Of a stretch of DNA of 51,025 bases, positions 1-16,155 are shown piece after piece (the first letter of the stretch is position 1; each line of letters opens with the position of its first letter). The stretch covers positions 1 to 51,025 of the forward strand of contig CAMBFD010000008.1 of the NCBI GenBank assembly GCA_945865625.1, in the 5' to 3' direction. The notes below the pieces were generated by a model that did not search any database, was not told where the DNA came from, and saw only the letters and a program-made list of their open reading frames with translations. The DNA comes from Chitinophaga pinensis (GTDB lineage Bacteria > Bacteroidota > Bacteroidia > NS11-12g > UBA955). A program made the translations under genes and the position numbers.

Positions 1-151
1 GGCTCTCTGTGTCGATGACGCAGATGTCACTCCATTGATTTGTGAGTCCTTTTGCAAGTAGTAAAGAAGAATAGGTCTTCCCGCTACCACTGCAACCTTG
101 AATGGCCAGTTTGATTTTGGCTCTCTTTCTTTGTGCTTGTGTGATTTTCAT
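1..151 (-). CDS. Sak4-like P-loop ATPase, N-terminal part only (runs off left edge); second copy of the gene at 14771-15664
   Basis: Nucleotide match to 15514-15664 with one visible mismatch; encodes MKITQAQRKRAKIKLAIQGCSGSGKTYSSLLLAKG.. with Walker A GCSGSGKT. Confidence 0.9.
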   Translation of the reverse strand, partial: MKITQAQRKRAKIKLAIQGCSGSGKTYSSLLLAKGLTNQWSDICVIDTES

Positions 152-530
152 AATTTTTTATGTTAGCAGTAGCAGAAAGAAAAAAGGAAACCAATTTAGT
201 AGGACTAATCAGTTAGGTTATGAAATCCAATCTAACGGTATATCTATATTAACTCGAAATGTTATGATGTAGGGGAGTAGTCGGTTTCTCATTAAGAGAT
301 AGGGGGGATCAATTAGACTACCCCCACAGTCATTTGTATAGGAAATGAGGGTGAGGGTTGGAAATTTTGGTAGAATTAGGTCCCAAAGTGCGAACTGAAC
401 TGCGAACTGGAAGGTGGTTTTTGGGGTATAATTTGGAAAATTATAACATTTGAGGTTAATTTTGAAAAAGCACTTTTTTACAAATTTGCTCTCTGTTCTA
501 CTTCATTAACCATTGAAAACACTGGTAAAG
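1..530. repeat. Direct repeat copy A (right end of an upstream related element)
   Basis: Aligns with 15514-16044; coding part ~99% and noncoding part roughly 94% identical by eye; similarity stops at ..CACTGGTAAAG. Confidence 0.93.
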
Positions 531-542
531 AGCATAAAAAAA

Positions 543-562
543 GCCTCACATTTCTGTGAGGC
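543..562. terminator. Hairpin terminator following tRNA-Asn-like sequence
   Basis: Perfect GCCTCACA-TTTC-TGTGAGGC stem with A-run on the left and T-run on the right. Confidence 0.8.
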
Positions 563-568
563 TTTTGG

Positions 569-642
569 CTCCCTGAGCTGGACTCGAACCAGCGACCTAT
601 TGATTAACAGTCAATTGCTCTAACCAGCTGAGCTATCGGCTT
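569..642 (-). tRNA. tRNA-Asn (GTT)-like; acceptor stem 5' strand does not pair (possible pseudo-tRNA / att relic)
   Basis: D-arm GCTC..GAGC, anticodon arm ATTGA-CTGTTAA-TCAAT, T-arm GCTGG-TTCGAGT-CCAGC and encoded CCA are present; 5' acceptor AAGCCGA versus 3' TCAGGGA pairs at only 3 of 7 positions. Confidence 0.7.
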
Positions 643-713
643 GAACCCGATGTTTATTGGGGTAAAGTAGAGAATTAAGCGAATTTTAAAATAAGTGCGA
701 ACTGAAATCGCAC

Positions 714-1823
714 ATGAACCAATTTTTGCTATACTCTCAACCGACCATTGGCGGAATGGAAAAAGGCAGACCTTATGTCTACTTCTCGCATGTAATTAGC
801 AAACAGAAATACCGATTTTACTCTGGTGTTGCCTTTGGAATGCGAAGTGCTAGAGGACTTAATGACGAAGAACTACAATTGTATTTTAGGTCTTTGGCTC
901 AGGCCATCACTATGAAGTTGAGTACAGGATGGAGTCCCGAAGATGACAAACCCACACCCAACAAAGTTGAAAAGGATAATAAACCGTTGAAATCCTACAG
1001 CGCTTTGTTTTGCGATTATATTGAGAAAGCCGACTATAGCGCTAAGCACAAATATGCTTTGCGATGGTATTGGGGTGAATTATTGAAATTTAGTGGTCCG
1101 ATTCATATCGAAGATATTACTACCTCTGATATTCAAGTTCATTTGATGAATCGATATGCCTCTAGCAATACCTCTTATAACACAGCGAAGCGATACTACA
1201 AGTGTATATTTAATCTGCTTGTACAACTGGGGCATGTTGAGGTGAACCCTGTAGTAGGGGTAAAGAGTAAAAAGGCAGTGGCGAGCATCAATGGAGCTTT
1301 TGATCAAGTAGAGCTACAAGCACTGATGGAGTACCTTAAGGCAAACGACCGAGTGCTCTATCGAGTGGCACTTTTGATGTATACCACATTTATGAGGCCT
1401 CACCAAGAAATACGTTTACTACAAGTAAAGTTTATTCATTTTGATGATCGTCTTCTTGTCCTACCACCACGATTTACTAAAAATGGGAAACAGGCAACAA
1501 TTCCACTGCAAGATTCAGTTCTAGAAGAGTTCAAGTTTATCAAAGACATGAAGCCCGAAGATTACATCTTTGGGAAAGTTAATCCAGACTACTTCGCTAC
1601 TCGGTGGGGTAAGCGTGTCAAAACAAAATATCCATTAAGGCCAAATCAAACGCTTTACTCCATAAGGCATACTGCTGCCGTGGAGATGTATCGCAAAACA
1701 AAGGATGTGGCACTGATACAGCGAATGATGCATCACAGTAGCATGGAAGTTACCATAGGTTACTTAAGAAGCCTCAACTGTACCTTAACTGTAGTTAGTG
1801 CGGAGATGTATCCGAGTTTGTGA
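714..1823 (+). CDS. Tyrosine recombinase/integrase
   Basis: C-terminal catalytic pattern: TTFMRPHQEIRLL, LYSIRHTAAVEMY, MMHHSSMEVTIGYLRSL. Confidence 0.92.
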   Translation: MNQFLLYSQPTIGGMEKGRPYVYFSHVISKQKYRFYSGVAFGMRSARGLNDEELQLYFRSLAQAITMKLSTGWSPEDDKPTPNKVEKDNKPLKSYSALFCDYIEKADYSAKHKYALRWYWGELLKFSGPIHIEDITTSDIQVHLMNRYASSNTSYNTAKRYYKCIFNLLVQLGHVEVNPVVGVKSKKAVASINGAFDQVELQALMEYLKANDRVLYRVALLMYTTFMRPHQEIRLLQVKFIHFDDRLLVLPPRFTKNGKQATIPLQDSVLEEFKFIKDMKPEDYIFGKVNPDYFATRWGKRVKTKYPLRPNQTLYSIRHTAAVEMYRKTKDVALIQRMMHHSSMEVTIGYLRSLNCTLTVVSAEMYPSL

Positions 1824-3227
1824 TTAAGTAAGATTTAAACTTGGGACTAATCCAAATAGGTTGAGTGCCTCTTCTTCTAATGTTGATTTTATGATTGGCA
1901 GGTACTCTTCAGTTGTATAAATGGAATCATGTTTTGTAAATAGAGGAATGTTCTTGTACCTTTTGTTAATGCTCTTGCACACAACTTCTAGAATATAATA
2001 CGATTCTAAAGATTGTAGAAGTACAGGGAAGTAGTTTCCTTCTTCTGATGAATCTTTAATGGCACTGATGATTTTGTGTACTCCAGGATACTGTTTTTTA
2101 AACTTTGGAATGCCCTTTTTATTGTTTTTAGGTTTCGTAAAAAACAGTGTAAAAAACAGATCTTTAACAACTCGTTTATTATCGTTTACATACTCAAGGC
2201 CAAAGATGTTTTGCGACATTACAGGGTACAAATGCCCTTTTTTACATAAAAGTTGAAACTCTAGAACCCCAGTAAAATCAGCATCTGACAAAAAATCTTC
2301 CAACATAATGGTATGATAGGGAGGATGTGTGTGAGTGTATTTATATAGATAGTTGTTAAGTTTTGTATTGGTTATTAGTGGATTTAATGAGTGATTTGAT
2401 GGGAGGGGCTCTTTTTTTAGCTCATTTTGTCTCAATTGGTATGATATGAGTAATGAGTTAATTATAACTGAAGTTAAGAAGGGTTGGCTGTTGGCTATAT
2501 CATATCCAACGAGATGTTTACCTTTGAATCTTAACGCGGGAAAAATCTTAGAACTTAGCCCAGTTAAACTAGTATGTAGGCGACCTGAGGTTGTATCTCT
2601 AGTTGCGTAAATCCTACCTTTATTGATTGATTTAACATTGTCTTTCCTGAAATTGTAGGCACGCAAAGGAATTATGTGATATGGCTCTAATCCGAACATG
2701 CCTTCTTTATATCCAACCCTCGGCTTTACTTTATCTTGCTGATAAACTGACCAATTTAAATCATTTGCAAGTTGATCATCTATGGTGATTTGATTTAACC
2801 AATCTACCAAGAATGATATACCAAATATGTTCTGAACATTAGTTACACTAGAAGTTAAAGAAGAGTTAGACTCAAAGGTAACTGTCATCAGAACGTCTCT
2901 GCCGTAATTAATATTAGTTACATCATCTGTGATTAGTTTGTAGTACCTACACTTTGACTTGATCTGATAACTATAATCAATTTGGATTATATCTTTACTT
3001 TCCATCCAACTCAGGTAAAAGCGGTACTCATGAGATATTTTCTGCAGGTGTTCTGAGCAGAGCATTACATAACCATCAGGAACAACATCTTTGTTTAAGT
3101 TGTGCACCTGTATTAGGTTTTTTAACAAACTGTAACAATGGTTTTTGTTGAATTTAAAACCTGCTTCTTCATCAGTTGCACACTCCACTTTTTGCATAAC
3201 AGTATAGGGTAATACGACAGTTAACAT
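1824..3227 (-). CDS. Palm-domain polymerase-like protein (superfamily A DNA pol / T7-like RNAP related; TV-Pol-like)
   Basis: Motif A-like LVGYDIANSQPFL, motif B-like KRVVKDLFFTLFF, motif C-like LFTKHDSIYTTEE in the right order; upstream GRLHTSLTGL. Confidence 0.6.
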   Translation of the reverse strand: MLTVVLPYTVMQKVECATDEEAGFKFNKNHCYSLLKNLIQVHNLNKDVVPDGYVMLCSEHLQKISHEYRFYLSWMESKDIIQIDYSYQIKSKCRYYKLITDDVTNINYGRDVLMTVTFESNSSLTSSVTNVQNIFGISFLVDWLNQITIDDQLANDLNWSVYQQDKVKPRVGYKEGMFGLEPYHIIPLRAYNFRKDNVKSINKGRIYATRDTTSGRLHTSLTGLSSKIFPALRFKGKHLVGYDIANSQPFLTSVIINSLLISYQLRQNELKKEPLPSNHSLNPLITNTKLNNYLYKYTHTHPPYHTIMLEDFLSDADFTGVLEFQLLCKKGHLYPVMSQNIFGLEYVNDNKRVVKDLFFTLFFTKPKNNKKGIPKFKKQYPGVHKIISAIKDSSEEGNYFPVLLQSLESYYILEVVCKSINKRYKNIPLFTKHDSIYTTEEYLPIIKSTLEEEALNLFGLVPSLNLT

Positions 3228-3268
3228 ATAGCAAAGTTCTTAAAGAAAATCTAATAACTTTGCTATAT
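3226..3268. promoter_or_regulatory. 13-bp perfect inverted repeat in divergent polymerase/hsdM intergenic region, containing Bacteroidota -7-like TAACTTTG
   Basis: ATATAGCAAAGTT (3226-3238) and AACTTTGCTATAT (3256-3268). Confidence 0.75.
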
Positions 3269-3272
3269 CACC

Positions 3273-4730
3273 ATGTTCGAACAAACCTTTAAAAATATAG
3301 ACGATATCCTTTACAAGGATGCAGGAGCTGACAGCGAGTTAGATTACATCGGACAAACTTCATGGATTCTATTTCTCAAGTACCTTGATGACTTAGAGAA
3401 AGACAGAATGGATGAAGCCGAACTCAAGGGTGAAACATACAATTACATCTTAACACCTGAGTTTCGTTGGGAGTCATGGGCAATGCCAAAAGGGTCTGAT
3501 GGCAAGCTAGATCACAACATAGCTCTAACTGGTCCTGACTTTGTGGACTTTGTGGACCAACAGTTGTTCCCCTACTTGAAAGGGTTTAAGTTGAGTGCAG
3601 ATAACCCTCAAACCATCGAATATAAGATTGGTGAGATTTTTAGTGAGCTGAAGAACAAGATTCAGAGCGGTTACAACCTAAGAGAAATTGTTGCTCATAT
3701 CGATGGCTTACCTTTTAGAACATCCGTTGACAAGCATGAGTTGAGTCACTTGTACGAGACCAAGATCAAGAATATGGGTAACGCAGGGAGGAATGGTGGT
3801 CAATACTATACTCCTAGGCCACTTATCCGTGCGATGATCAATGTAGTCGGTCCAAAAGTTGGTGACAAGGTTTACGATGGTGCGGTTGGAAGTGCAGGCT
3901 TCTTATGTGAAGCTCATGAGTATATGACTAAAGATCGCTCTGCTTTGTCTACTTCAGATTTAAAGACCATCCAAACCAACACCTTTTACGGTAAGGAGAA
4001 AAAGAACCTCGCTTATATTATTGGTATCATGAACATGATTCTTCATGGAATTGAAGCACCGAACATAATCCACACGAACACCCTAAGTGAGAATTTGCGT
4101 GACATACAGGAGAAAGACAGATTCTCAGTAGTTCTTGCTAACCCTCCCTTTGGAGGAAAGGAAAGACCTGAGGTTCAACAGAACTTCGATATTAAGACCA
4201 GTGAAACGGCTTTTCTTTTCCTACAGCACTTCATCAAGATATTAAAAGCTGGCGGTAGAGCTGCTATAGTAATCAAGAATACTTTCCTTAGTAATACGGA
4301 CAATGCTTCTGTAGCCCTCAGGAAGCACATCTTAGAGAGTTGTAACCTTCATACTATCTTGGATATGCCATCGGGTACTTTTCAAGGAGCAGGAGTAAAA
4401 ACTGTGGTTCTATTTTACGACAAAGGACAGCCCACAAATAAGATATGGTATTACCAGTTGGATCCAGGAAGAAACATGGGTAAAACCAATCCCCTGAACG
4501 ATAAAGACCTTGAAGATTTCATCAATCTACAGAAGACCAAAGCTGATTCGGATAAGTCATGGACGATTGATGTTGCTGATGTAGACGAGTCAACTTACGA
4601 TTTATCGGTTAAAAACCCTACCAAGAAGGAAGAAAAGGTCGTTCGTACCCCTACTGATATATTGGCTGAGATGAGGTCATTAGACGAAGAAACCAACAGC
4701 ATTTTAAACTCAATAGCAGGATTGATATGA
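3273..4730 (+). CDS. hsdM: Type I restriction-modification system, N6-adenine DNA methyltransferase subunit
   Basis: N-terminal HsdM helical domain, GQYYTPRPLI, VYDGAVGSAGFL, catalytic NPPF (ANPPFGG). Confidence 0.96.
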   Translation: MFEQTFKNIDDILYKDAGADSELDYIGQTSWILFLKYLDDLEKDRMDEAELKGETYNYILTPEFRWESWAMPKGSDGKLDHNIALTGPDFVDFVDQQLFPYLKGFKLSADNPQTIEYKIGEIFSELKNKIQSGYNLREIVAHIDGLPFRTSVDKHELSHLYETKIKNMGNAGRNGGQYYTPRPLIRAMINVVGPKVGDKVYDGAVGSAGFLCEAHEYMTKDRSALSTSDLKTIQTNTFYGKEKKNLAYIIGIMNMILHGIEAPNIIHTNTLSENLRDIQEKDRFSVVLANPPFGGKERPEVQQNFDIKTSETAFLFLQHFIKILKAGGRAAIVIKNTFLSNTDNASVALRKHILESCNLHTILDMPSGTFQGAGVKTVVLFYDKGQPTNKIWYYQLDPGRNMGKTNPLNDKDLEDFINLQKTKADSDKSWTIDVADVDESTYDLSVKNPTKKEEKVVRTPTDILAEMRSLDEETNSILNSIAGLI

Positions 4731-5848
4731 AGGAAGGTTGGGAGATAAAGACTTTAGGTGAAGTTTGTGATATCCTAGATAAATTGAGAAAGCCAATCAC
4801 CAAAAGCGATCGAGTTGTTGGGGATTATCCATATTACGGTGCAACTGGTATATTAAGCTACGTTGATCACTACATTTTCTCGGAAGATTTGGTATTACTA
4901 GGCGAGGACGGAGCTAAATGGGGCGTTGGAGACAGAAGTGCTTTTATTGCTACTGGTAAATACTGGGTAAACAATCACGCACACGTACTGAAACCCAAGA
5001 ATGACGCATTGGAATATAATTGGTTAGTACATTATCTGAATGGCAATGACCTAACTCCATTTGTAACGGGAATGACTGTACCCAAACTTACTCAGGAAAA
5101 AATGCGTTCTATACCAATTCCTTTGCCTTCACTTCCAGAACAACAACGCATAGTATCCATCATAGACGAATCCTTTGAAGCCATAGACAAAGCCATAGAA
5201 AACACCCAAAAGAACCTACAAAACGCCAAAGAGCTGTTTGAGAGTTACTTGAATAGTGTGTTTGAGAATGGTGGTGAGGATCGGGCGATTCATAAGTTGG
5301 GGGAAGTAGCATCCTTTTCACAAGGTATTCAAGTAGGTCTTGAACATCAACTTACTGAACCCCAACAAGGTTATGTAAGGTTTATTAGGATAGTAGATTA
5401 TACTCAAAATACAGATGATATCAGATACGTTCCTAATCCAGGACAAAAGTATTTTGTCAATGAAGATGACATTGTAATGGTTCGTTACGGAACCCCAGGC
5501 TTAATTGGTCGTGGAAAAGCAGGAGTCATTGCGAATAACCTTTTTAAGATAACTATTCAAAGAGAAGATTTGTTAAATGATTTTTTGTCACTGTGTCTTT
5601 CTCAAAAACATATTCAGACATTTTTAAGCACACAGGGTTCTGCAACTATGCCTGCATTAAATTTTGGACAGCTGAAAAATGTTATGATTATTTTTCCATC
5701 TCTCAAAGACCAACATAATATCGTTCAACAATTAGATGCTCTGCAATCAAAAATTCAAACTTTGGAAGCGAAATACCAACAAAAACTCCGTGATTTGGAG
5801 GAGCTAAAGAAATCCGTACTTAACAGAGCATTTGCAGGAATATTATGA
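4727..5848 (+). CDS. hsdS: Type I restriction-modification system specificity subunit (two TRDs)
   Basis: Two TRD halves each followed by conserved coiled-coil (LPSLPEQQRIVSIIDESF.. and FPSLKDQHNIVQQLDAL..); ATGA overlap with hsdM. Confidence 0.95.
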   Translation: MKEGWEIKTLGEVCDILDKLRKPITKSDRVVGDYPYYGATGILSYVDHYIFSEDLVLLGEDGAKWGVGDRSAFIATGKYWVNNHAHVLKPKNDALEYNWLVHYLNGNDLTPFVTGMTVPKLTQEKMRSIPIPLPSLPEQQRIVSIIDESFEAIDKAIENTQKNLQNAKELFESYLNSVFENGGEDRAIHKLGEVASFSQGIQVGLEHQLTEPQQGYVRFIRIVDYTQNTDDIRYVPNPGQKYFVNEDDIVMVRYGTPGLIGRGKAGVIANNLFKITIQREDLLNDFLSLCLSQKHIQTFLSTQGSATMPALNFGQLKNVMIIFPSLKDQHNIVQQLDALQSKIQTLEAKYQQKLRDLEELKKSVLNRAFAGIL

Positions 5849-6687
5849 AAAAAGAAGAATCTACATGGAAAGAGGCAATTACACTAGTACTTGCATCAGA
5901 AGGAAGACCAATGCATTACGCAGAAATTGCTCAGCTAATTGCAAAAAGTGGTTTTCGGGAATCTCTTGGAGCTACTCCGCAGGATACAGTTAATGCACAA
6001 ATCTCAGTTGACATAAAGAAAAATGGATCCAAATCAATTTTTATTCGTGCAGCAAAAGGAATCTACAATATTAATAATGTAGCGTTAGCAGACAAAAGGA
6101 CTATTGAAAAGACAAAAACAGATATTTTTTTAGATAGTTTAGACTCCATTGATTTTGATGATCCTGAATTATTCAAAGAAAATGAGTCCGTAATACGTGT
6201 TGTGAATGCTTTTGGTATACATTGGGACAGGAAATTAGTGGAATGGAAGTCCAAACCTCATCTTTACGGAATTCAATTACAAGGCGCAACAGAAGTTAAT
6301 TTTCAGTCCCAAATTGGCATATACATGTTACACGATTCTCGTGAAACGATTTATGTAGGTCAAGCAATCAAGCAAAGTTTAGGAGAACGACTCCGCCAAC
6401 ATACTATTGATCGATTGAGTGGAAGATGGGATCGTTTTTCTTGGTTCGGGTTTTACCCTGTTAAAAATGACGGTTCATTGGACCAAAAATTTAAATTGCC
6501 CGAATTACAAATTGAAGAAATGGGTGATTTCATTGAGGCCTTATTTATTGAAGCGCTTGAACCTAGGCAAAATAGGAAACAGGGTAATCAATTTTATACC
6601 ATGGAGTACTTACAAAAGGAAGATGAAAATATCAAAAAGAAAAGAGAAGACCAGTTACTTGCTGACCTAATTACGAGAAGAAGATAA
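5845..6687 (+). CDS. HARE-HTH domain + GIY-YIG nuclease-like protein embedded in type I R-M operon
   Basis: N-term EGRPMHYAEIAQLIAKSGF..SIFIRAAKGIYNIN (HARE-HTH pattern); C-term GIYMLHDSRETIYVGQA..LGERLRQH..FIEALFIEALEPRQNR (GIY..YVG..R..E..N); ATGA overlap with hsdS. Confidence 0.72.
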   Translation: MKKEESTWKEAITLVLASEGRPMHYAEIAQLIAKSGFRESLGATPQDTVNAQISVDIKKNGSKSIFIRAAKGIYNINNVALADKRTIEKTKTDIFLDSLDSIDFDDPELFKENESVIRVVNAFGIHWDRKLVEWKSKPHLYGIQLQGATEVNFQSQIGIYMLHDSRETIYVGQAIKQSLGERLRQHTIDRLSGRWDRFSWFGFYPVKNDGSLDQKFKLPELQIEEMGDFIEALFIEALEPRQNRKQGNQFYTMEYLQKEDENIKKKREDQLLADLITRRR

Positions 6688-6689
6688 CT

Positions 6690-9074
6690 ATGAACGAAGC
6701 TGAAACCATAGCAAACCTAATTGATCCCCATTTAAGAAGCCAAGGATGGCATTCAAATGGGAGTTTGATTAAACGTGAGTTCCCCATAACTCCAGGAAGA
6801 ATACTAGGTCAAGGCAGAAGAGGTACTCCTGAGAAAGCCGACATCGTTCTTCAATACAACAACAGAAACATCGCTGTAATCGAAGCCAAAAAGAATGACG
6901 CTTATGTCAGTGACGGCAGAGATCAAGCCATCAGATATGCCAAAAGGCTTAACCTACGCTACACCTATAGCACCAATGGTGTTGAATACTACCAAATAGA
7001 CCTCCTTACACAGGAGGAAACTACAATTGACACATTCCCGACTCCAGAGGAGTTGTGGGAAATGACTTTTGCTACTGCCAATGCAACTGAGCAAGAGTTA
7101 ACTGCCAAAGAGCTTCTTGATAAATTAGTATCAATTGGATTCGAAGAGCGTGGAGGAACATGGAAGCTTAGATACTACCAAGAAAACGCCATTACAAGGG
7201 TGTTAGAAGCCATAGCAAACAATCAGAAGCGGATTCTACTCACACTGGCAACAGGTACAGGAAAAACAGCCATTGCGTTTCAGATTGCATGGAAACTATT
7301 CCAAGGCAAATGGAGCTTATCAAACAATCAACGTAGACCAAGAATCTTATTTCTTGCTGATAGAAATATATTGGCTGATCAAGCCTTCAATGCATTCTCA
7401 TCCTTCGATGAAGACGCACTCGTAAGGATCAAACCTGCTGACATTCGCAAGAAGGGCCAAGTACCCAAGAATGGAAGTGTATTCTTTACCATCTTCCAAA
7501 CGTTTTTAAGTGGTGATAATGAAACTCCATACTTTGGTGAGTATCCACAGGACTTCTTTGACTTCATTATCATTGACGAGTGTCACAGAGGTGGTGCTAA
7601 CGATGAAAGTAACTGGAGAGCCATTATGGACTATTTTAGTCCTGCTGTCCAACTAGGACTTACTGCTACCCCTAAAAGAGATCAAAACGTTGATACCTAC
7701 AAGTACTTCGGTGAGCCTGTATATATTTACTCGCTTAAAGACGGTATCAATGATGGATTCTTGACTCCTTTCAAGGTTAAACAAATCTCTACAACAGCTG
7801 ATACCTACACCTTCACCCCAGACGATGTTGTAGAGCAAGGAGAAATAGAAGAAGGTCGAGAATACACCAGAGATGAGATGAATCGAATGATTCAAATCAA
7901 AGAACGTGAGGAATACTTGGTCAAGGTATTCATGGAGCAAATTAATCAGAACGAGAAGACCTTGGTCTTTTGTGCTACCCAGTATCACGCTGCCATGGTT
8001 AGGGACTTCATCAACAAGCACGCTAAAGTTAAAAACTTAAACTACTGCCAACGTGTAACTGCCAATGACGGTGATACGGGAGAAGGTTATCTGAGGGAGT
8101 TTCAGGACAACGAGAAAACGCTTCCTACTATACTAACTACTTCACAGAAGTTAAGTACGGGTGTAGATGCTCCAGAAGTGCGCAATATCATTCTAATGAG
8201 ACGAGTGAACTCGATGATTGAGTTCAAGCAGATTATTGGTCGTGGTACTCGTTTATTTGAAGGTAAGGATTACTTTACCATATACGACTACTACGAAGCC
8301 TACAAGCTATTCAGTGACCCTGACTGGGATGGTGAACCTATTGATCCAGAAGTAAAAGAGCCAGTAACACCTCCACAACCGTGTAATTCGTGCGGTCAGA
8401 GACCTTGTGTATGTTCAGTTGATGATCCAGGAGAACCTTGTGAAGTTTGTGGATACACAAAATGCAGATGTAACGCTAAATCAAGGATTATGATTAAAGT
8501 CCGCTTAGCGGATGGCAAGGTAAGGCAGTTACAAAACATGGTGCATACCACGTTCTGGAGTCCTGATGGCAGTCAGATTAGTGCAAAAGAGTTTCTCGAG
8601 TCCTTGTTTGGACAATTGCCATCTCTATTTAAGAACGAAGATGAACTAAGGACCATATGGAGTGCACCTGATACCCGTAAGAAACTTTTGTTACAACTAG
8701 AAGAACGGGGATTTGCTAAACCACAGTTACAAGAGTTTCAAAAGGTTCTTAACGCAGAGAACAGTGATTTGTATGATGTGCTTGCTTACATCGCTTTTGA
8801 GTCTCAAATGATCGACAGGGGAATTAGAGCGGAGTATGCCAGAGAGACGATTACAGGGCTTACAGACAAGCAACAGGAGTTTATCAACTTCGTTCTTGGT
8901 CAGTACGTCAAAGAGGGCGTAGAAGAGTTGGATATGGACAAATTAACCGAGTTGCTCGAGTTAAAGTACATGCAGATAGCAGACGCCAAAAAGGAATTAG
9001 GATCTATTGCAAACATCAGGGATTCGTTTGTGAGCTTCCAACCGATGTTATACAAAAAGGCTATAGCGATATAG
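6690..9074 (+). CDS. hsdR: Type I restriction endonuclease subunit R (DEAD-like helicase)
   Basis: PD-(D/E)XK ADIVLQYNNRNIAVIEAKK, Walker A LATGTGKTAIA, DEAH-like IIDECHRGG, GRGTRL motif VI. Confidence 0.95.
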   Translation: MNEAETIANLIDPHLRSQGWHSNGSLIKREFPITPGRILGQGRRGTPEKADIVLQYNNRNIAVIEAKKNDAYVSDGRDQAIRYAKRLNLRYTYSTNGVEYYQIDLLTQEETTIDTFPTPEELWEMTFATANATEQELTAKELLDKLVSIGFEERGGTWKLRYYQENAITRVLEAIANNQKRILLTLATGTGKTAIAFQIAWKLFQGKWSLSNNQRRPRILFLADRNILADQAFNAFSSFDEDALVRIKPADIRKKGQVPKNGSVFFTIFQTFLSGDNETPYFGEYPQDFFDFIIIDECHRGGANDESNWRAIMDYFSPAVQLGLTATPKRDQNVDTYKYFGEPVYIYSLKDGINDGFLTPFKVKQISTTADTYTFTPDDVVEQGEIEEGREYTRDEMNRMIQIKEREEYLVKVFMEQINQNEKTLVFCATQYHAAMVRDFINKHAKVKNLNYCQRVTANDGDTGEGYLREFQDNEKTLPTILTTSQKLSTGVDAPEVRNIILMRRVNSMIEFKQIIGRGTRLFEGKDYFTIYDYYEAYKLFSDPDWDGEPIDPEVKEPVTPPQPCNSCGQRPCVCSVDDPGEPCEVCGYTKCRCNAKSRIMIKVRLADGKVRQLQNMVHTTFWSPDGSQISAKEFLESLFGQLPSLFKNEDELRTIWSAPDTRKKLLLQLEERGFAKPQLQEFQKVLNAENSDLYDVLAYIAFESQMIDRGIRAEYARETITGLTDKQQEFINFVLGQYVKEGVEELDMDKLTELLELKYMQIADAKKELGSIANIRDSFVSFQPMLYKKAIAI

Positions 9075-9092
9075 GCTTAATAACTAAATTGA

Positions 9093-9449
9093 ATGAAAAA
9101 TCTCTCAAAATCAAAATGGCGTGGACAAAATGGGAAATTCACAAAATGTAAAAATTGTGGTAAAGGTTTTACGGTAATTGCCTATAATAAACATCGGTTA
9201 AATTGTGGCTTAAATGTAACAACCTCAACAGAGAGCACGAGTTTAGCTACAACACTGCACAAGACAATGAAAAACAGGTCGAAATTTAGAGGTTCAATAA
9301 ATCAGGTGCACCCTTCAAAAGGAAAGAAACGTAGCGAAGTAATAGCAGAACTAAAACGAGGCAAGTTGAATGGTCCTTATACAAAAGAAGATGAAAAAGA
9401 ACTTAATCGTATTGTAGGCAGCCGTAATGCTGGTTTTGTTAGGAAATGA
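9093..9449 (+). CDS. Small C2HC zinc-finger-like protein, unknown function
   Basis: CKNCGKGFTVIAYNKHRLNC; 18 bp downstream of hsdR. Confidence 0.6.
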   Translation: MKNLSKSKWRGQNGKFTKCKNCGKGFTVIAYNKHRLNCGLNVTTSTESTSLATTLHKTMKNRSKFRGSINQVHPSKGKKRSEVIAELKRGKLNGPYTKEDEKELNRIVGSRNAGFVRK

Positions 9450-9571
9450 AAATCAAAACCACATCTAATGATTATTATATAATACTCCCTGAATCCTGGA
9501 CTGAAACCAAGAGCAACAAATTGGTATTTTGGTTTAAGAACTGGGGGGCTATTATAGATAAAGCGTATTAA
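9446..9571 (+). CDS. 41-aa hypothetical ORF translationally overlapping the zinc-finger gene
   Basis: ATGA overlap at 9446; MKIKTTSNDYYIILPESWTETKSNKLVFWFKNWGAIIDKAY*; absent from ORF track because of length. Confidence 0.4.
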   Translation: MKIKTTSNDYYIILPESWTETKSNKLVFWFKNWGAIIDKAY

Positions 9572-9589
9572 GTGCAGTGTATTTTTTTT

Positions 9590-10510
9590 CTAATCGTAGT
9601 ACTCATATTGCCAAACGTCATATTTTTTTCGACATTCTGATACGAATTGGCTGCATTCTATTTTGTTGCCTAGATAATCATATTTATAGATGTTTTTCGA
9701 GACCAAACTACCATCTGGGCCATACTGATGTGTTTCTACTAAACTACCCATATCGTTATATTTATACGAATCTGTGAATTTAATTGTATTGTCTTCATTG
9801 AAAACAATGAGTTCAATTAGATTCCCCTGAACATCATATTTAAAAGTACTGCTCAATTTACCGTTATAGTAGAAATATGCAAATTCAATGGACTTATCTT
9901 TATATAGATAGATATTTTTACTCGAACAAACTCCTTTAGCATCGTATTCGCAACTTTCAAGTTCATTATTGTTAATGTCGTATTTGTAAGTGGAATGACT
10001 TCTTTTTCTACCATCAGAATTGTAACGGGTTTGTTCAATTATTTTATCACTATCATTATAGGTGTTAACACAAGTAAACTGTATTTCTAAAATATTGGCA
10101 GCATTAGAATTGGAATTTCTAAATTCAACAATATGGCCCTTATTGTCAAATTTGCCAGTCTTACGATGTAATAACTTGCCATCTGCGTTGAACTTTTTCC
10201 GTTCAATTATTTTATCGCTGGTATCGTATATGTAAATTTTGCGACTTTGCAATATGTCATTTTTATTATAGAAATACTCTTCAATCAGATTGCCTGTGTT
10301 GTCGAAATTATTAGTCATACGCCTTAATAACATGCCATCTACGTCAAAATTTGATTCCGTGTAAGATTTCACTTTTCCTTTTAACTTTCCAAATTCCCAA
10401 GCATTTCGAAAATATTCAGGTTGAGCATTTTGAGAATACACCGTGCTCACCACGGTGAAAATTGATAAAATTAATAATTTTATTTTTTTCATGATTGATG
10501 GGTATGACAA
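9590..10510 (-). CDS. Secreted protein with YD/RHS-like short repeats (start probably MKKIKLLIL at 10492)
   Basis: Signal peptide MKKIKLLILSIFTVVSTVYS; repeated pattern YD..G..IE...Y..DG.L. Confidence 0.7.
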   Translation of the reverse strand: MSYPSIMKKIKLLILSIFTVVSTVYSQNAQPEYFRNAWEFGKLKGKVKSYTESNFDVDGMLLRRMTNNFDNTGNLIEEYFYNKNDILQSRKIYIYDTSDKIIERKKFNADGKLLHRKTGKFDNKGHIVEFRNSNSNAANILEIQFTCVNTYNDSDKIIEQTRYNSDGRKRSHSTYKYDINNNELESCEYDAKGVCSSKNIYLYKDKSIEFAYFYYNGKLSSTFKYDVQGNLIELIVFNEDNTIKFTDSYKYNDMGSLVETHQYGPDGSLVSKNIYKYDYLGNKIECSQFVSECRKKYDVWQYEYYD

Positions 10511-10660
10511 ATGATTTTAAATTTAATTATCATTAATTTTAAATCGCCATAAAAAAACAATTAAATCTCCAAATTATAGAAGTTTGACACTTAGATGGAA
10601 TATGACTTAATGAAATAAATCACCAAAAAAAATAGAGTATCTGATGAATTCTATCTTTAT

Positions 10661-10897
10661 TTAGTTGCGACATTTTAGTCTCGCATTATTTAGTCCATCA
10701 TATTTTTCAGCACATCTCTGAAGCTTTACTTTCTGAGACGGTGTCGTATTTAAAAGCCATAATCCACCATTATATACTCCAACTTTTTCTGCAAGTTTTG
10801 AACAATCACAAGCAGAAGGCCCACAAGCGCTAAGTATTGTTGATATTGTTAACAATAAGAAAATACCTTTTAGTTTAGTTGTTGTTTTTACACCCAT
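10661..10897 (-). CDS. Small lipoprotein
   Basis: Lipobox LLTISTILSACG. Confidence 0.6.
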   Translation of the reverse strand: MGVKTTTKLKGIFLLLTISTILSACGPSACDCSKLAEKVGVYNGGLWLLNTTPSQKVKLQRCAEKYDGLNNARLKCRN

Positions 10898-11009
10898 ATT
10901 TCAAAGATAAAAAATTTTTGCACTTATTGTTTGAACTCATGAACTAAAATATTAAATTCGTATCTGTCGGAATAGTATACCAAACACTAACTAAATAAAA
11001 TATTACAAA

Positions 11010-12182
11010 ATGAATTTCTTTTACAAAGTTTTATTTTTAGGTTTGTTTATTTTTTTAAATTTTGCCAAATGTGCAAATGATGGTTTAGAAACTGTTAAGA
11101 TAGGGAATCAAGAATGGTTGACAGAAGATTTAAAAACGTCAAAATATAATAATGGAGATCCTATTTTTGAAGCAAAATTGCCAGAGGAATGGGAGCAATA
11201 CGGCAAAAATCAAACAGGGTGTTTTAGAATACTTCATAATGGTACATTCATATATAACGGATTTGCAATAGCAGATTCACGAGGTATTTTACCTGAAGGG
11301 TTTGCTTTACCCGAATACGATGACTTTCAAGAACTACTTGAAAATCTTGGCGGAGTTGGCGATTGTGGTGTCCCCGCAGAAAAATCAATGGCAGTATACA
11401 CCTATCATTGTACCCAATTTGATGAAAAACTTGGGGGATTGATGGAAGTTGAAATTAAGGGGAATAACAATTCTGCGTTTAATGCCAAAGAAGGGGGATT
11501 CGTTTATAATCATGGTGCCATCGGTAACGAAGGGCCGTGTTCCTTTTGGTGGACATCAACATTAGAAGGAACAGATTTAGTTTCCTTAGGAATCGGATAT
11601 TGTTCGAATGACATAGGTGGTAAGACCATATGTGAGAAATCATTTGGTTTTGCAGTAAGAGGTTTGAAGAAAACAAAAAATACGATTCAAAATCAACGAC
11701 TTAAACTAAATCAATCTGTTATTCATAAATCTCCAAACACTGAGTCAATTGAACTTATTAATTCCATCATCAGAATTACTGGTAAAGATTTTAATCGTGG
11801 AACTAGTGTCACTGGCCTGGTTAAAGGCGAGTCTGTAATGGCAATTATACCAAACAATACTACAGTGAATGTAGTAGTAAAATATCGTTATTTTGTGTCA
11901 TCGGGAATTGAAGAAGCCCAAGAAGAAGGTACACTGCAGAATTTCAAAATAACAACAGATGGTCCGAATAATACTAAAACAATCTCTGCAGAATGGAATA
12001 ATTTAGATGCATATGCGGGAGATGGTACATTTACATTCAGGCTCTACAGCGAGGATGAACCTCAAACTATTATTGCACAAATCGATTCAAAAAATGGTAG
12101 CAATTGGCGCCATAGTGCTTGGATTGAACTTTCAAATGATAGCTACAAAAAGATCCTTGAATTCATATCTGTTGAAAAATAA
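11010..12182 (+). CDS. FISUMP-domain secreted protein
   Basis: VKIGNQEWLTEDLKTSKYNNGDPI and later WWTSTLEG..FAVRGLKK typical of FISUMP (Fib_succ_major) domain. Confidence 0.8.
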   Translation: MNFFYKVLFLGLFIFLNFAKCANDGLETVKIGNQEWLTEDLKTSKYNNGDPIFEAKLPEEWEQYGKNQTGCFRILHNGTFIYNGFAIADSRGILPEGFALPEYDDFQELLENLGGVGDCGVPAEKSMAVYTYHCTQFDEKLGGLMEVEIKGNNNSAFNAKEGGFVYNHGAIGNEGPCSFWWTSTLEGTDLVSLGIGYCSNDIGGKTICEKSFGFAVRGLKKTKNTIQNQRLKLNQSVIHKSPNTESIELINSIIRITGKDFNRGTSVTGLVKGESVMAIIPNNTTVNVVVKYRYFVSSGIEEAQEEGTLQNFKITTDGPNNTKTISAEWNNLDAYAGDGTFTFRLYSEDEPQTIIAQIDSKNGSNWRHSAWIELSNDSYKKILEFISVEK

Positions 12183-12282
12183 TAAATGATATTACGAAAT
12201 ATCCTTTTAGCAATCAATTTGATTTGAAAACAGCAATTTATATCTTCAACCGAAACAACAAATTCAATTAAATATCAACCCA

Positions 12283-12474
12283 ATGAGGCAAAAGAATTTA
12301 GTTCAACAAATCAGAGATGTAATAAAAAATGGACTGGTAAAAGAACCATTTAAAGCCACTGATTTCACATTTCTCAGTAAAAGTCCAAGTTTTATTTCAA
12401 AGCACGCAGTTGGAAATGGTAAATATACTGAATACTTTGTCAGAGTTGGAATAGGGACATACAAGCTAAAATGA
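12283..12474 (+). CDS. Small wHTH-like hypothetical protein
   Basis: 63 aa ending SKHAVGNGKYTEYFVRVGIGTYKLK, resembling the terminal strands of HARE/wHTH domains. Confidence 0.45.
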   Translation: MRQKNLVQQIRDVIKNGLVKEPFKATDFTFLSKSPSFISKHAVGNGKYTEYFVRVGIGTYKLK

Positions 12475-12600
12475 GAAATCTAGCTAATAATAGCATTTGC
12501 TGAAAATTAAAATTTAGGTCGTTAAATAATTTTAACATAGCCAAAAGGTATATATTATATTAAAAGAAAAACCCCACCCATTACTGAGTGGAGTATCTTT

Positions 12601-12654
12601 TCAAAGCCAGCCCTTTTCCGCAAAACTCGTGTAATCACTATCCAGACCCTCTAC
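12601..12654 (-). pseudogene. radC 3' end relic
   Basis: Minus strand encodes ..VEGLDSDYTSFAEKGWL* versus intact RadC C-terminus KDDYSSFTEKGWL*. Confidence 0.75.
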
Positions 12655-12748
12655 TTAGCAATCAATTGCATTGTTTTGCAAAATCATTAGTTTTTACTAT
12701 AATTGAACGTTCATAACGCATTGTATAGCATAACACAACAAACTCAAT

Positions 12749-13258
12749 ATGAAAAAAAGTACAATTTTCCGTTTCTCTCTTCTTGCCGCAGTTTGCGGAC
12801 TCTTCTTTCTTCAGTCTTGTGAAAAAGACCCTGTAACTCCTCCTGTCGATAACTCTGCCAATGTAAAGCCTTATATTCTTGTAAATGGAGTAAAATTTGT
12901 TTGTGCAAAACCTAGCGTTTTAAGGGTTAATGGGACAGCCTTCGATTCAACGTTGACTTGGTGGGGAACAGGTTCTTCAGATACCATTATAACTATTAGC
13001 CATCAAAAAAATGAGATTAAAGTAGGTTCGTATCAGGTTGATTCAACTGGTTTTGGAGATCCTGGATTTATTACATGTGGAATGAGATGGGGTACTATGT
13101 CCTCTTCACCAAACATTAACATTGCGAAAGGTACTTATGAGTTGAAACGTGAAAATGGAAAATTTGTTTCCTATTTAAAAAATGGCGAAGGCTTTAATGG
13201 TTTAAAACATAATCAGCGTTTCTACAACATAGAATTCAAGGTTGTTTGGCCATATTGA
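12749..13258 (+). CDS. Lipoprotein, unknown function
   Basis: Lipobox GLFFLQSCEKDP; cargo gene flanked by radC relic and intact radC. Confidence 0.75.
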   Translation: MKKSTIFRFSLLAAVCGLFFLQSCEKDPVTPPVDNSANVKPYILVNGVKFVCAKPSVLRVNGTAFDSTLTWWGTGSSDTIITISHQKNEIKVGSYQVDSTGFGDPGFITCGMRWGTMSSSPNINIAKGTYELKRENGKFVSYLKNGEGFNGLKHNQRFYNIEFKVVWPY

Positions 13259-13324
13259 TAGTATTTTCTTGATGCTGCTGATTGTTACTAACTCGGTGCA
13301 TCTTAATTCTTCATTCAAATAAAG

Positions 13325-13348
13325 AGGGCTGGTATTATAACCAGCCCT
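13325..13348. terminator. Hairpin terminator shared by lipoprotein gene and radC 3' end
   Basis: AGGGCTGGT-ATTATA-ACCAGCCCT followed by TTTTCT. Confidence 0.7.
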
Positions 13349-13790
13349 TTTCTGTAAAACTGGAGTAATCATCCTTTATCCCTAGGATGAGATGGTCAAT
13401 CAATCGGATGTCCAATAGCTCGCCTGCTTCTTTGATCTTTTTCGTAAGCTTCAAATCCTCATCCGAAGCTTCTAGATTGCCACTGGGATGATTGTGTGCA
13501 ATCACGATTCCTGAAGCAAGAACTTTGAGAGCGGTTGCGAAGATGATGCGATGATCTACCACAGTAGCTGAAATGCCACCTTTGAACGCTTTTAAGCCCC
13601 CAATCACCCTGTTGGCTCTATTCATGAATAGAACGACAAATTGTTCGTTCAAACCCAAGGAATTGGGCTCAAATAGCTCTTTGAGTAGTCGGTAGGCATC
13701 AGAAGAATTTCTGATTTGCGGTAGCGGTGTTTCTTTGGGTGAGTAACCAATGGAAAGTTCACGTAGTTTGAGTAGTTGGTTTTCGTTCAT
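13335..13790 (-). CDS. radC: RadC/JAB (MPN+) domain protein
   Basis: AHNHPSGNLEASDEDLKLTKKIKEAGELLDIRLIDHLILG (JAMM motif). Confidence 0.93.
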   Translation of the reverse strand: MNENQLLKLRELSIGYSPKETPLPQIRNSSDAYRLLKELFEPNSLGLNEQFVVLFMNRANRVIGGLKAFKGGISATVVDHRIIFATALKVLASGIVIAHNHPSGNLEASDEDLKLTKKIKEAGELLDIRLIDHLILGIKDDYSSFTEKGWL

Positions 13791-13860
13791 ACGCTAGAGA
13801 AGAGAAAAATCCCACAGCATAAGCCATGGGATAATTCTACACTTAGGGAAACTTAAGGAA

Positions 13861-14784
13861 TCAGCAAAACGTTTGAAGCAAGGATGAAGCATTTACACCC
13901 CTGTCCAACAAACGATCGATGTAGGAGCTCTTATTTGCTCCCGTGAAGAGGTTGTAAAGCCTCCAAAGATTGATTTCACCATCAGTTCTACTGAAGTTTG
14001 GATCGTTGTAGTACCCTTCAACCACTTGATTGATTTGGGAATCCCCAAACTCGAGCTTAGGTAGTAGCGCTTTCTCCTCTTTTGGCATGTACAAGTACAT
14101 TCTGCAGCGTCCAATGAACTCAGCAAACTGTTGTTCGGTTAGATTGATGTTTTGCCAGCATTCAAATTGGTCTAATGTCGCTTGAGGTTCAAACTCCCGA
14201 ATCATTTGCTTAGTCCTTTGGGTGATTTCATCCACACTGAACACTCTGAGATCGTCAACAATCCCATCTGTCCACACACATAGGTTACAGCACACTCGGT
14301 TTTTAAACCCAATGAACAGTTTGAACTTCTCCAAGCTTTTCTTCGAATGAAGATTTTCTAGGTGGTAGCTTTTCACCCCTCCAATGGTAAGCGTGAGTTC
14401 GTCATCGCCAATCATTCTTTTAACCGAAGGTATTTCGATGGCAAACATCATTCGCTCGTAGTACAAAGTCTCTTCATGGGATTCCAGATCACTGGCTTTT
14501 TTATGACGTGCTTCAGGTATTCTTCCCTTAACAGGGTGAGAAACACGGATTACAGGATCGTTGGAATGATAGAAGGCGCTTACTCCGTCCAAAACTGCTT
14601 CAATGAACTCATGATGTGAGATAGCAGCTTCGTTGTCCTTGGCAAAAACAGGAATTGTACACCCGTAGAGCAACTCATTCATCGAAACAGGCAAAGTGTT
14701 CGCTTCAATGAATACAGGGGCTGAAATGGTCTGTAAATCGCTCTCAATAGCCAAGTCGCTAAAGGGATTGTTATGATTGTCCAT
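13861..14784 (-). CDS. DUF3871-like protein
   Basis: Overall composition and motifs (FKLFIGFKNRVCCNLCVWTDG) as recalled for Bacteroidota DUF3871 proteins; overlaps ATPase gene. Confidence 0.65.
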   Translation of the reverse strand: MDNHNNPFSDLAIESDLQTISAPVFIEANTLPVSMNELLYGCTIPVFAKDNEAAISHHEFIEAVLDGVSAFYHSNDPVIRVSHPVKGRIPEARHKKASDLESHEETLYYERMMFAIEIPSVKRMIGDDELTLTIGGVKSYHLENLHSKKSLEKFKLFIGFKNRVCCNLCVWTDGIVDDLRVFSVDEITQRTKQMIREFEPQATLDQFECWQNINLTEQQFAEFIGRCRMYLYMPKEEKALLPKLEFGDSQINQVVEGYYNDPNFSRTDGEINLWRLYNLFTGANKSSYIDRLLDRGVNASSLLQTFC

Positions 14785-15664
14785 TGGTATACCTCCCTTC
14801 TTTCTGTAGTTCGTTTTTACGCTTCAAAAACACATCGTAGTTTTCTTGGGAGTGGTCTATTTTACCCCACAGTACCACCAGTTCTTCTAGGTGTTTGACT
14901 TCTGCAACCATTTCCTCTACTGAAGGAGCGGTAACTTCAAACCTAGGCTCTCTTTCGATTCTTTCAGCTACCTCGGTAGATTGGATTCTGACTCCATTAC
15001 ACCATTCCACAATCTTTTCACCTGTTTGCTCGGTGATTTTGAACGGAATGCTGGCTGAGAATAGTTGAGTGCGGTCTTTTGAGCATGTGGCGTTGTGATT
15101 GATGTCAACATCCATAACAATTGTGAACTCGTAATCCATCCCATCTTTGGTGACAGACTTCAAACCCACTTTCTCGGGAGTCATTTTACCGTTTTTGTCG
15201 CTTAGTACATAGTCTTGTTTGGTTCTAAAGGTAACAATGATGTGACAATCGCTCTGAAGAATCTTCTGAACAAGGGAATTGTGTCTAGGGGTTACTTTGC
15301 TCCAATTGGTAAAGGAGTTGCCTACCATCCCTGCATGGATTTCCAGAATTCCACCTTCGCCATCCCATTCATGAGACAGTGAATCGATAACAATAACCTT
15401 CACACCAGATTGTTCGCATAGTTCAATCGCTTGAATGTAGCTCTCAGGCGTAAATGGCTTACCAATGGAAAGAACATTGTAGTTCCCCAAATGGGCGTAG
15501 AGGTCAGCAGAATGGCTCTCTGTGTCGATGACGCAGATGTCACTCCATTGATTTGTGAGTCCTTTTGCAAGTAGTAAAGAAGAATAGGTCTTCCCGCTAC
15601 CACTGCAACCTTGAATGGCCAGTTTGATTTTGGCTCTCTTTCGTTGTGCTTGTGTGATTTTCAT
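14771..15664 (-). CDS. Sak4-like RecA-fold ATPase (phage/element AAA ATPase)
   Basis: Walker A IQGCSGSGKTYSSLLL, Walker B VKVIVIDSLSHEW, sensor-like DCHIIVTFRTKQDY. Confidence 0.8.
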   Translation of the reverse strand: MKITQAQRKRAKIKLAIQGCSGSGKTYSSLLLAKGLTNQWSDICVIDTESHSADLYAHLGNYNVLSIGKPFTPESYIQAIELCEQSGVKVIVIDSLSHEWDGEGGILEIHAGMVGNSFTNWSKVTPRHNSLVQKILQSDCHIIVTFRTKQDYVLSDKNGKMTPEKVGLKSVTKDGMDYEFTIVMDVDINHNATCSKDRTQLFSASIPFKITEQTGEKIVEWCNGVRIQSTEVAERIEREPRFEVTAPSVEEMVAEVKHLEELVVLWGKIDHSQENYDVFLKRKNELQKEGRYTNGQS

Positions 15665-16044
15665 AATTTTTTATGTTAGCAGTAGCAGAAAGAAAAAAGG
15701 AAACCAATTTAGTAGGACTAATCAGTTAGGTTATGAAATCCAATTTAACTGTATATCTATATTAACTCGAAATGTTACAATGTAGGGGAGTGGTCGGTTT
15801 CCCCTAGAGAGATAGGGGGTGTCAATTAGACTACCCCCACAGTCATTTGTATAGGAAATGATGGTGAGGGTTGGAAATTTTGGTAGAATTAGGTCCCAAA
15901 GTGCGAACTGAACTGCGAACTGAAAGGTGATTTTTGGGGTATAATTTGGGAAATTATAACATTTTAGGTTAAATTTGAAAAAGCACTTTTTTTACAAATT
16001 TGCCTAATGTTCTACTTCATTAACCATTGAAAACACTGGTAAAG
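15514..16044. repeat. Direct repeat copy B (right end of the element in this window)
   Basis: See copy A at 1-530. Confidence 0.93.
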
Positions 16045-16076: not shown

Positions 16077-16081
16077 TTCTG

Positions 16082-16155
16082 TGGGCCCACTTGGAATCGA
16101 ACCAAGCACCTACTGATTATGAGTCAGTTGCTCTAACCGAATGAGCTATAGGCCC
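16082..16155 (-). tRNA. tRNA-Met (CAT)
   Basis: Full cloverleaf: acceptor GGGCCTA/TGGGCCC, anticodon arm ACTGA-CTCATAA-TCAGT; elongator Met versus Ile2 cannot be distinguished by eye. Confidence 0.85.

Follow-up and report, generated by a model that had tools for sequence, protein, structure and literature searches.

We propose that the 467-aa protein encoded beside a tyrosine recombinase gene in the window, the whole stretch of 51,025 nucleotides analysed here, is probably a minimal TV-Pol-type superfamily A palm polymerase, which replicates a tRNA-integrated element of about 15.4 kb or primes its synthesis. Most likely it works on this element after excision, and we infer both catalysis and priming. 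The polymerase is an additional member of an already known family: TV-Pol was defined by Iyer, Abhiman and Aravind in 2008, and members from Bacteroidetes were known earlier (PMC2579912). The combination of a TV-Pol with a Sak4-DUF3871 accessory module, on the other hand, is apparently undescribed in the literature we searched. The features discussed below are listed in Table 1.

Table 1. Features of the integrative element and of the polymerase gene (window coordinates).
Feature	Position	Strand	Basis
tRNA-Asn 3' fragment (att), 5' acceptor strand replaced	566..645	-	5' acceptor compared by eye
Tyrosine recombinase (integrase), convergent with polymerase	714..1823	+	PF00589 E 1e-15; PHROG integrase E 8.5e-35
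TV-Pol-like superfamily A polymerase, 467 aa	1824..3227	-	ATG start; motifs, fold model, profile match
Motif C KHDSIYTT, residues 432-439, H433-D434	1911..1934	-	HD 35/35
QxxES helix start (Q405, E408), at place of Pol I Q849	2001..2015	-	Q and E 35/35
Motif B / fingers helix KRVVKDLFFTLFF, residues 351-363, K355	2139..2177	-	K 35/35
Motif A YDIANSQPFL, residues 242-251, catalytic D243	2475..2504	-	D 35/35
Q248 within motif A, presumed ribose-gate position	2475..2504	-	Q 34/35; E in no member
Hairpin GRLHT, R216 (= Pol I R668 by motif order)	2571..2585	-	R invariant 35/35
Putative thumb helices, residues 138-202	2622..2816	-	Inferred from order relative to hairpin and motif A in AlphaFold2 model
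Predicted N-terminal winged helix-turn-helix, residues 28-98	2934..3146	-	AlphaFold2 secondary structure, moderate confidence
Type I restriction-modification genes (M, S, 280-aa ORF, R), cargo	3273..9074	+	
RadC-like JAB domain protein	13335..13790	-	PF04002 E 1.3e-37
DUF3871 protein, overlapping end of ATPase gene	13861..14784	-	PF12987 E 7.6e-107
AAA_24 ATPase, Sak4-like	14771..15664	-	PF13479 E 3.6e-16; PHROG 124 Sak4-like E 7.4e-8
Element right end, abutting tRNA-Met flank	15514..16044	.	95.7% identity over 531 bp to window 1-530
Intact tRNA-Met at element right end	16081..16155	-	

Catalytic motifs and distribution of the family

The polymerase gene is convergent with the integrase gene, as the first-pass annotation had described, and the two stop codons abut to give a tail-to-tail pair. 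The open reading frame was checked, the D, K and HD motifs reported in that annotation were found again at the same positions, and none of the 35 aligned sequences lacks these residues. Invariant throughout the 35-member alignment are R216, D243, Y334, K355, P381, Q405, E408, H433 and D434, including both active-site aspartates in motifs A and C. The first fingers helix carries an RxxxK arrangement, in which position 351 is R in 23 members and K in seven, the window protein having KxxxK. Motif A follows the family pattern D-I/L-x-N-S-Q-P, and a degenerate codon pattern of this region gave one match in the window and none in 100 dinucleotide shuffles. The residue five positions after the motif A aspartate, which is the ribose gate in Pol I (E710 in E. 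coli), is a glutamine in the window family; it is the E in the DYSQIE motif that was used to pick 18 PolA sequences from the host clade. A 17-nt inverted repeat (94% complementary, 3226-3268) lies in the short stretch that separates the polymerase gene from the divergently oriented hsdM and likely constitutes a shared promoter or operator.

Homologues were identified in 30 of 396 genomes of the class (about 7-8%) and in 17 of 397 genomes sampled across the phylum, 14 of which were already part of the class sample, indicating that the motif set is not due to chance. Relatives come from the same genus (G068, 56% identity), from another genus (G046) and from further families and orders. Eight more loci were obtained by scanning IMG/VR with a codon pattern, and relatives are also present in three huge phage genomes and on the Hymenobacter qilianensis plasmid NZ_CP060788. 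The idea that the latter relative is the sole replicon of its plasmid was rejected because a separate initiator and ParA are annotated there. Two further relatives, carrying the annotation other or unknown, are located beside recombinase/resolvase genes on an 11 kb Polaromonas plasmid (L187) and a 13.7 kb Calothrix plasmid (L186).

When used as a lone query, the window protein retrieved no related loci from the genome or viral contigs searched, no match in Pfam, NCBIfam or the PDB sequences, nothing useful from PADLOC and weak, uninformative matches in PHROGs. One might argue from the lack of a match in Pfam, NCBIfam and PDB that the motifs are coincidental and that the protein is no polymerase. 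We consider this very improbable, as the catalytic set is invariant in 35 sequences and both the fold search and the TV-Pol profile match described below point to a polymerase.

Predicted fold and placement within the TV-Pol family

An AlphaFold2 model was calculated from a 10-sequence alignment (pLDDT 75.8, pTM 0.66). The model starts with secondary structure elements in the order expected for the predicted winged helix (H28-45, E54-57, H58-64, H68-77, E81-84, E93-98), and two strands, E208-210 and E217-219, form the hairpin that carries R216 ahead of the palm. The first-pass annotation had recognised no exonuclease domain; this agrees with the absence of a Pfam domain and with the model, in which the winged helix and further helices occupy the region before the palm. 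The 50 best PDB matches in a Foldseek search were all Bst, Taq or Aquifex Pol I, Pol theta or mitochondrial RNA polymerase, the best of them with an E-value of 2.9e-4, a probability of 1.00 and a low TM-score of 0.37 at best. The predicted structure thus has the superfamily A fold, with matches of the Pol I or T7-like RNA polymerase type, which is the palm fold anticipated in the first-pass annotation. The best BFVD structure matches are phage proteins of about 400 aa, one of them called putative DNA polymerase I, and a protein of a Barba-group Rheinheimera phage annotated as DNA polymerase is also among the BFVD matches.

The motifs align with those of PolA in a forced full-length alignment, but in a profile comparison with hhalign the 18 Bacteroidota PolA sequences gave no significant match (score 20.1, with shuffles reaching up to 22.8). 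Kinship with PolA therefore rests on the structure and on the link to TV-Pol. The Microcystis phage Ma-LMM01 has been named as a TV-Pol carrier, with the gene not specified (PMC2579912). An HMM search alone found no TV-Pol member in Ma-LMM01, and we took MAP_030 as the candidate, because it adjoins transposases and contains the motifs. The family profile matched the profile of MAP_030 and the Polaromonas and Calothrix plasmid relatives with an hhalign score of 48.8 (P 1.8e-5), compared with at most 15.0 in 60 column shuffles. Based on this match we place the family under TV-Pol; together with the fold search and the motif invariance, it bears out the TV-Pol-like reading of the first-pass annotation.

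As described for TV-Pols (PMC2579912), the window protein has a minimal superfamily A core with the hairpin arginine, two catalytic aspartates and the fingers-helix lysine, has no nuclease domain, falls within the size range of 400-600 aa and is encoded next to a lambda-type integrase in a region rich in restriction-modification genes. Of the neighbours that characterise TV-Pol genes (an integrase, resolvase or transposase, or a D5-like helicase), it has the adjacent integrase. There are also differences: motif A reads D-I/L-x-N-S-Q-P, the window element has a Sak4-like ATPase and DUF3871 and no labelled D5 helicase partner, and the N-terminal domain is predicted here as a winged helix, whereas an all-helical domain was predicted previously (PMC2579912). 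One TV-Pol ORF (L092 7523-9580, genome G339) ends in a GIY-YIG homing-endonuclease-like region; nuclease fusions of TV-Pol were not reported in the 2008 paper (PMC2579912). Cellular DNA polymerase I shares the palm fold and the order of motifs A, B and C, but the window protein is without exonuclease or 5' nuclease and has Q in place of E in motif A. Going by published descriptions, the protein also resembles the phage proteins divPolA1 and divPolA2, divergent PolA variants without a working exonuclease (PMC11348598), although these are phage-borne and have other neighbours.

CcPol of SCCmec has likewise been classed as a TV-Pol and primes DNA de novo with its partner MP (PMC7581432, PMC10061031). 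The likeness, again drawn from description, consists of an A-family polymerase on a mobile element with a recombinase neighbour and replication partners. CcPol also bears on the question of which nucleic acid is made. The window protein could instead be an RNA polymerase of the T7-like kind, serving to transcribe the element or solely to make RNA primers, in line with the mitochondrial RNA polymerases among the fold matches, with Q248 replacing E at the ribose-gate position and E occurring in no member, and with the suggestion that the divergent phage relatives divPolA2 are possible RNA polymerases (PMC11348598). We regard this as quite unlikely: DNA polymerases (Bst, Taq) are the best fold matches, the proven relative CcPol makes DNA (PMC7581432), and the protein is without T7-type promoter-recognition domains, with only a small winged helix predicted.

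The integrative element and its relatives

The proposal in the first-pass annotation that the gene belongs to a small integrative element is borne out by the tRNA-Asn 3' fragment flanking the integrase gene and by relatives found in elements with tRNA direct repeats. Window positions 568-637 are identical to an intact host tRNA-Asn on contig C48. In another genome (G069, L124), DNA resembling window 441-567 and DNA resembling the 5' flank of the C48 gene join at one intact tRNA-Asn, which thus represents a site without the integrase-polymerase unit. Window 1-530 is the right end of a second, related element and abuts the flank of the tRNA-Asn fragment. As two right ends each abut a tRNA flank, the element spans about 15.4 kb, from approximately 638 to 16044; between 16 and 51 kb the window contains housekeeping genes (arginyl-tRNA synthetase, aconitase). 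The exact bounds in the assembly are uncertain, since the left att is derived from tRNA-Asn and the right one from tRNA-Met, a mismatch possibly caused by recombination between tandem elements or by an assembly join. A repeated motif, AAGTGCGAACTG, is found at both element ends (386-411, 693-706 and 15899-15922, in tandem at the right end), and these repeats are candidate integrase arm or origin sites.

In other genomes, integrase and TV-Pol genes lie inside elements of 7-14 kb whose boundaries are marked by direct repeats (32-53 bp) derived from tRNA 3' ends: a 13.6 kb element with a 32 bp tRNA-Met repeat (G319), a 10.8 kb element with a 40 bp tRNA-Arg repeat (G339) and a 7.0 kb element with a 35+17 bp tRNA-Gly repeat (G815). 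In the last one, TV-Pol is the only replication-type protein that was labelled by our searches. The tail-to-tail arrangement of integrase and polymerase occurs in three genomes (the window genome, G046 and G319), and a serine recombinase is the neighbour of TV-Pol at two loci (L090 and L091).

With their size of 7-15 kb, integrase, tRNA att, replication gene and cargo, these elements might be phage satellites, similar to SaPI/PICI islands, in which TV-Pol would replicate the element after induction by a helper phage. We think this improbable, as we recognised no gene for capsid morphogenesis, packaging or a repressor in the labelled neighbours and as relatives also occur on plasmids and with serine recombinases; moreover, the question concerns the lifestyle of the element and not the polymerase.

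Proposed replication function and accessory proteins

For the polymerase as replication or priming enzyme, we propose the following sequence of events. The integrase would excise the element by recombination between the tRNA-derived att sites. The predicted winged helix might then set the polymerase at the element origin, and the palm would synthesise either a primer or a strand, using as template the excised circle or a single strand that enters a new cell; its putative metal ligands are D243 and D434, with K355 contributed by the fingers helix and R216 by the hairpin. The Sak4-like ATPase, DUF3871 and RadC may process single-stranded intermediates, and the Type I restriction-modification genes would be cargo that favours retention of the element. 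The host retains its own PolA, so that the TV-Pol gene could be accessory.

TV-Pol is repeatedly accompanied by the Sak4-like ATPase (AAA_24), DUF3871 and RadC. Six independent loci (window, G319, G339, G166, G068 and IMG/VR 2830022421) have it near DUF3871, and five (window, G319, G339, G166 and G459) have it near the ATPase, a member of the Sak4 single-strand annealing protein family (PMC8093625). Of 247 class genomes, 13 encode DUF3871; TV-Pol is also present in five of these 13 and is physically linked to it in four. Three other DUF3871 elements contain a VapE-like helicase, and TV-Pol was not found there; conversely, our labelling of the window element yielded no D5/VapE helicase. This exchange beside Sak4-DUF3871 provides evidence on function by context and a candidate role for DUF3871. 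It also argues against an accessory repair or translesion polymerase that would be carried as cargo, either for recombination with Sak4 or as a defence gene, rather than as a replicase. Such a role would fit the recombination-type ATPase nearby, the Type I restriction-modification genes adjoining TV-Pol in the window, L101 and L088, and the presence of relatives among many other genes in some huge phages. We nevertheless give it only a small chance, because TV-Pol keeps company with an integrase and att sites across otherwise different elements, one of only 7 kb, and because small plasmids carry relatives.

No OB-fold homologue of MP was recognised, and no such gene lies next to the window polymerase; DUF3871 might take the place of MP. 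Going further, one could speculate that the Sak4-like ATPase, DUF3871 and TV-Pol form a replication module dedicated to the integrative elements of Bacteroidota, with DUF3871 conferring primase activity on the polymerase and with Q instead of E at the ribose gate permitting starts with NTPs, an idea that we put forward as doubtful. TV-Pols are proposed minimal prim-pols near the ancestral form of Pol I and T7 RNA polymerase, and the literature searched contains assays of the SCCmec relatives only. Since the subfamily described here is compact and common and the element ends can be read from the sequence, it is directly testable whether these enzymes prime, use ribonucleotides and require a partner.

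DUF3871 itself is essentially unstudied in the literature searched. Its model (pLDDT 77) combines a long antiparallel sheet with a C-terminal part made of helices, and no PDB match reached an E-value below 0.13, so that the predicted structure is possibly a new fold. At another locus (L155, 3566-5743), a 726-aa helicase-like protein is encoded directly upstream of TV-Pol, and proteins that appear similar to it by eye adjoin DUF3871 in L163 and L177.
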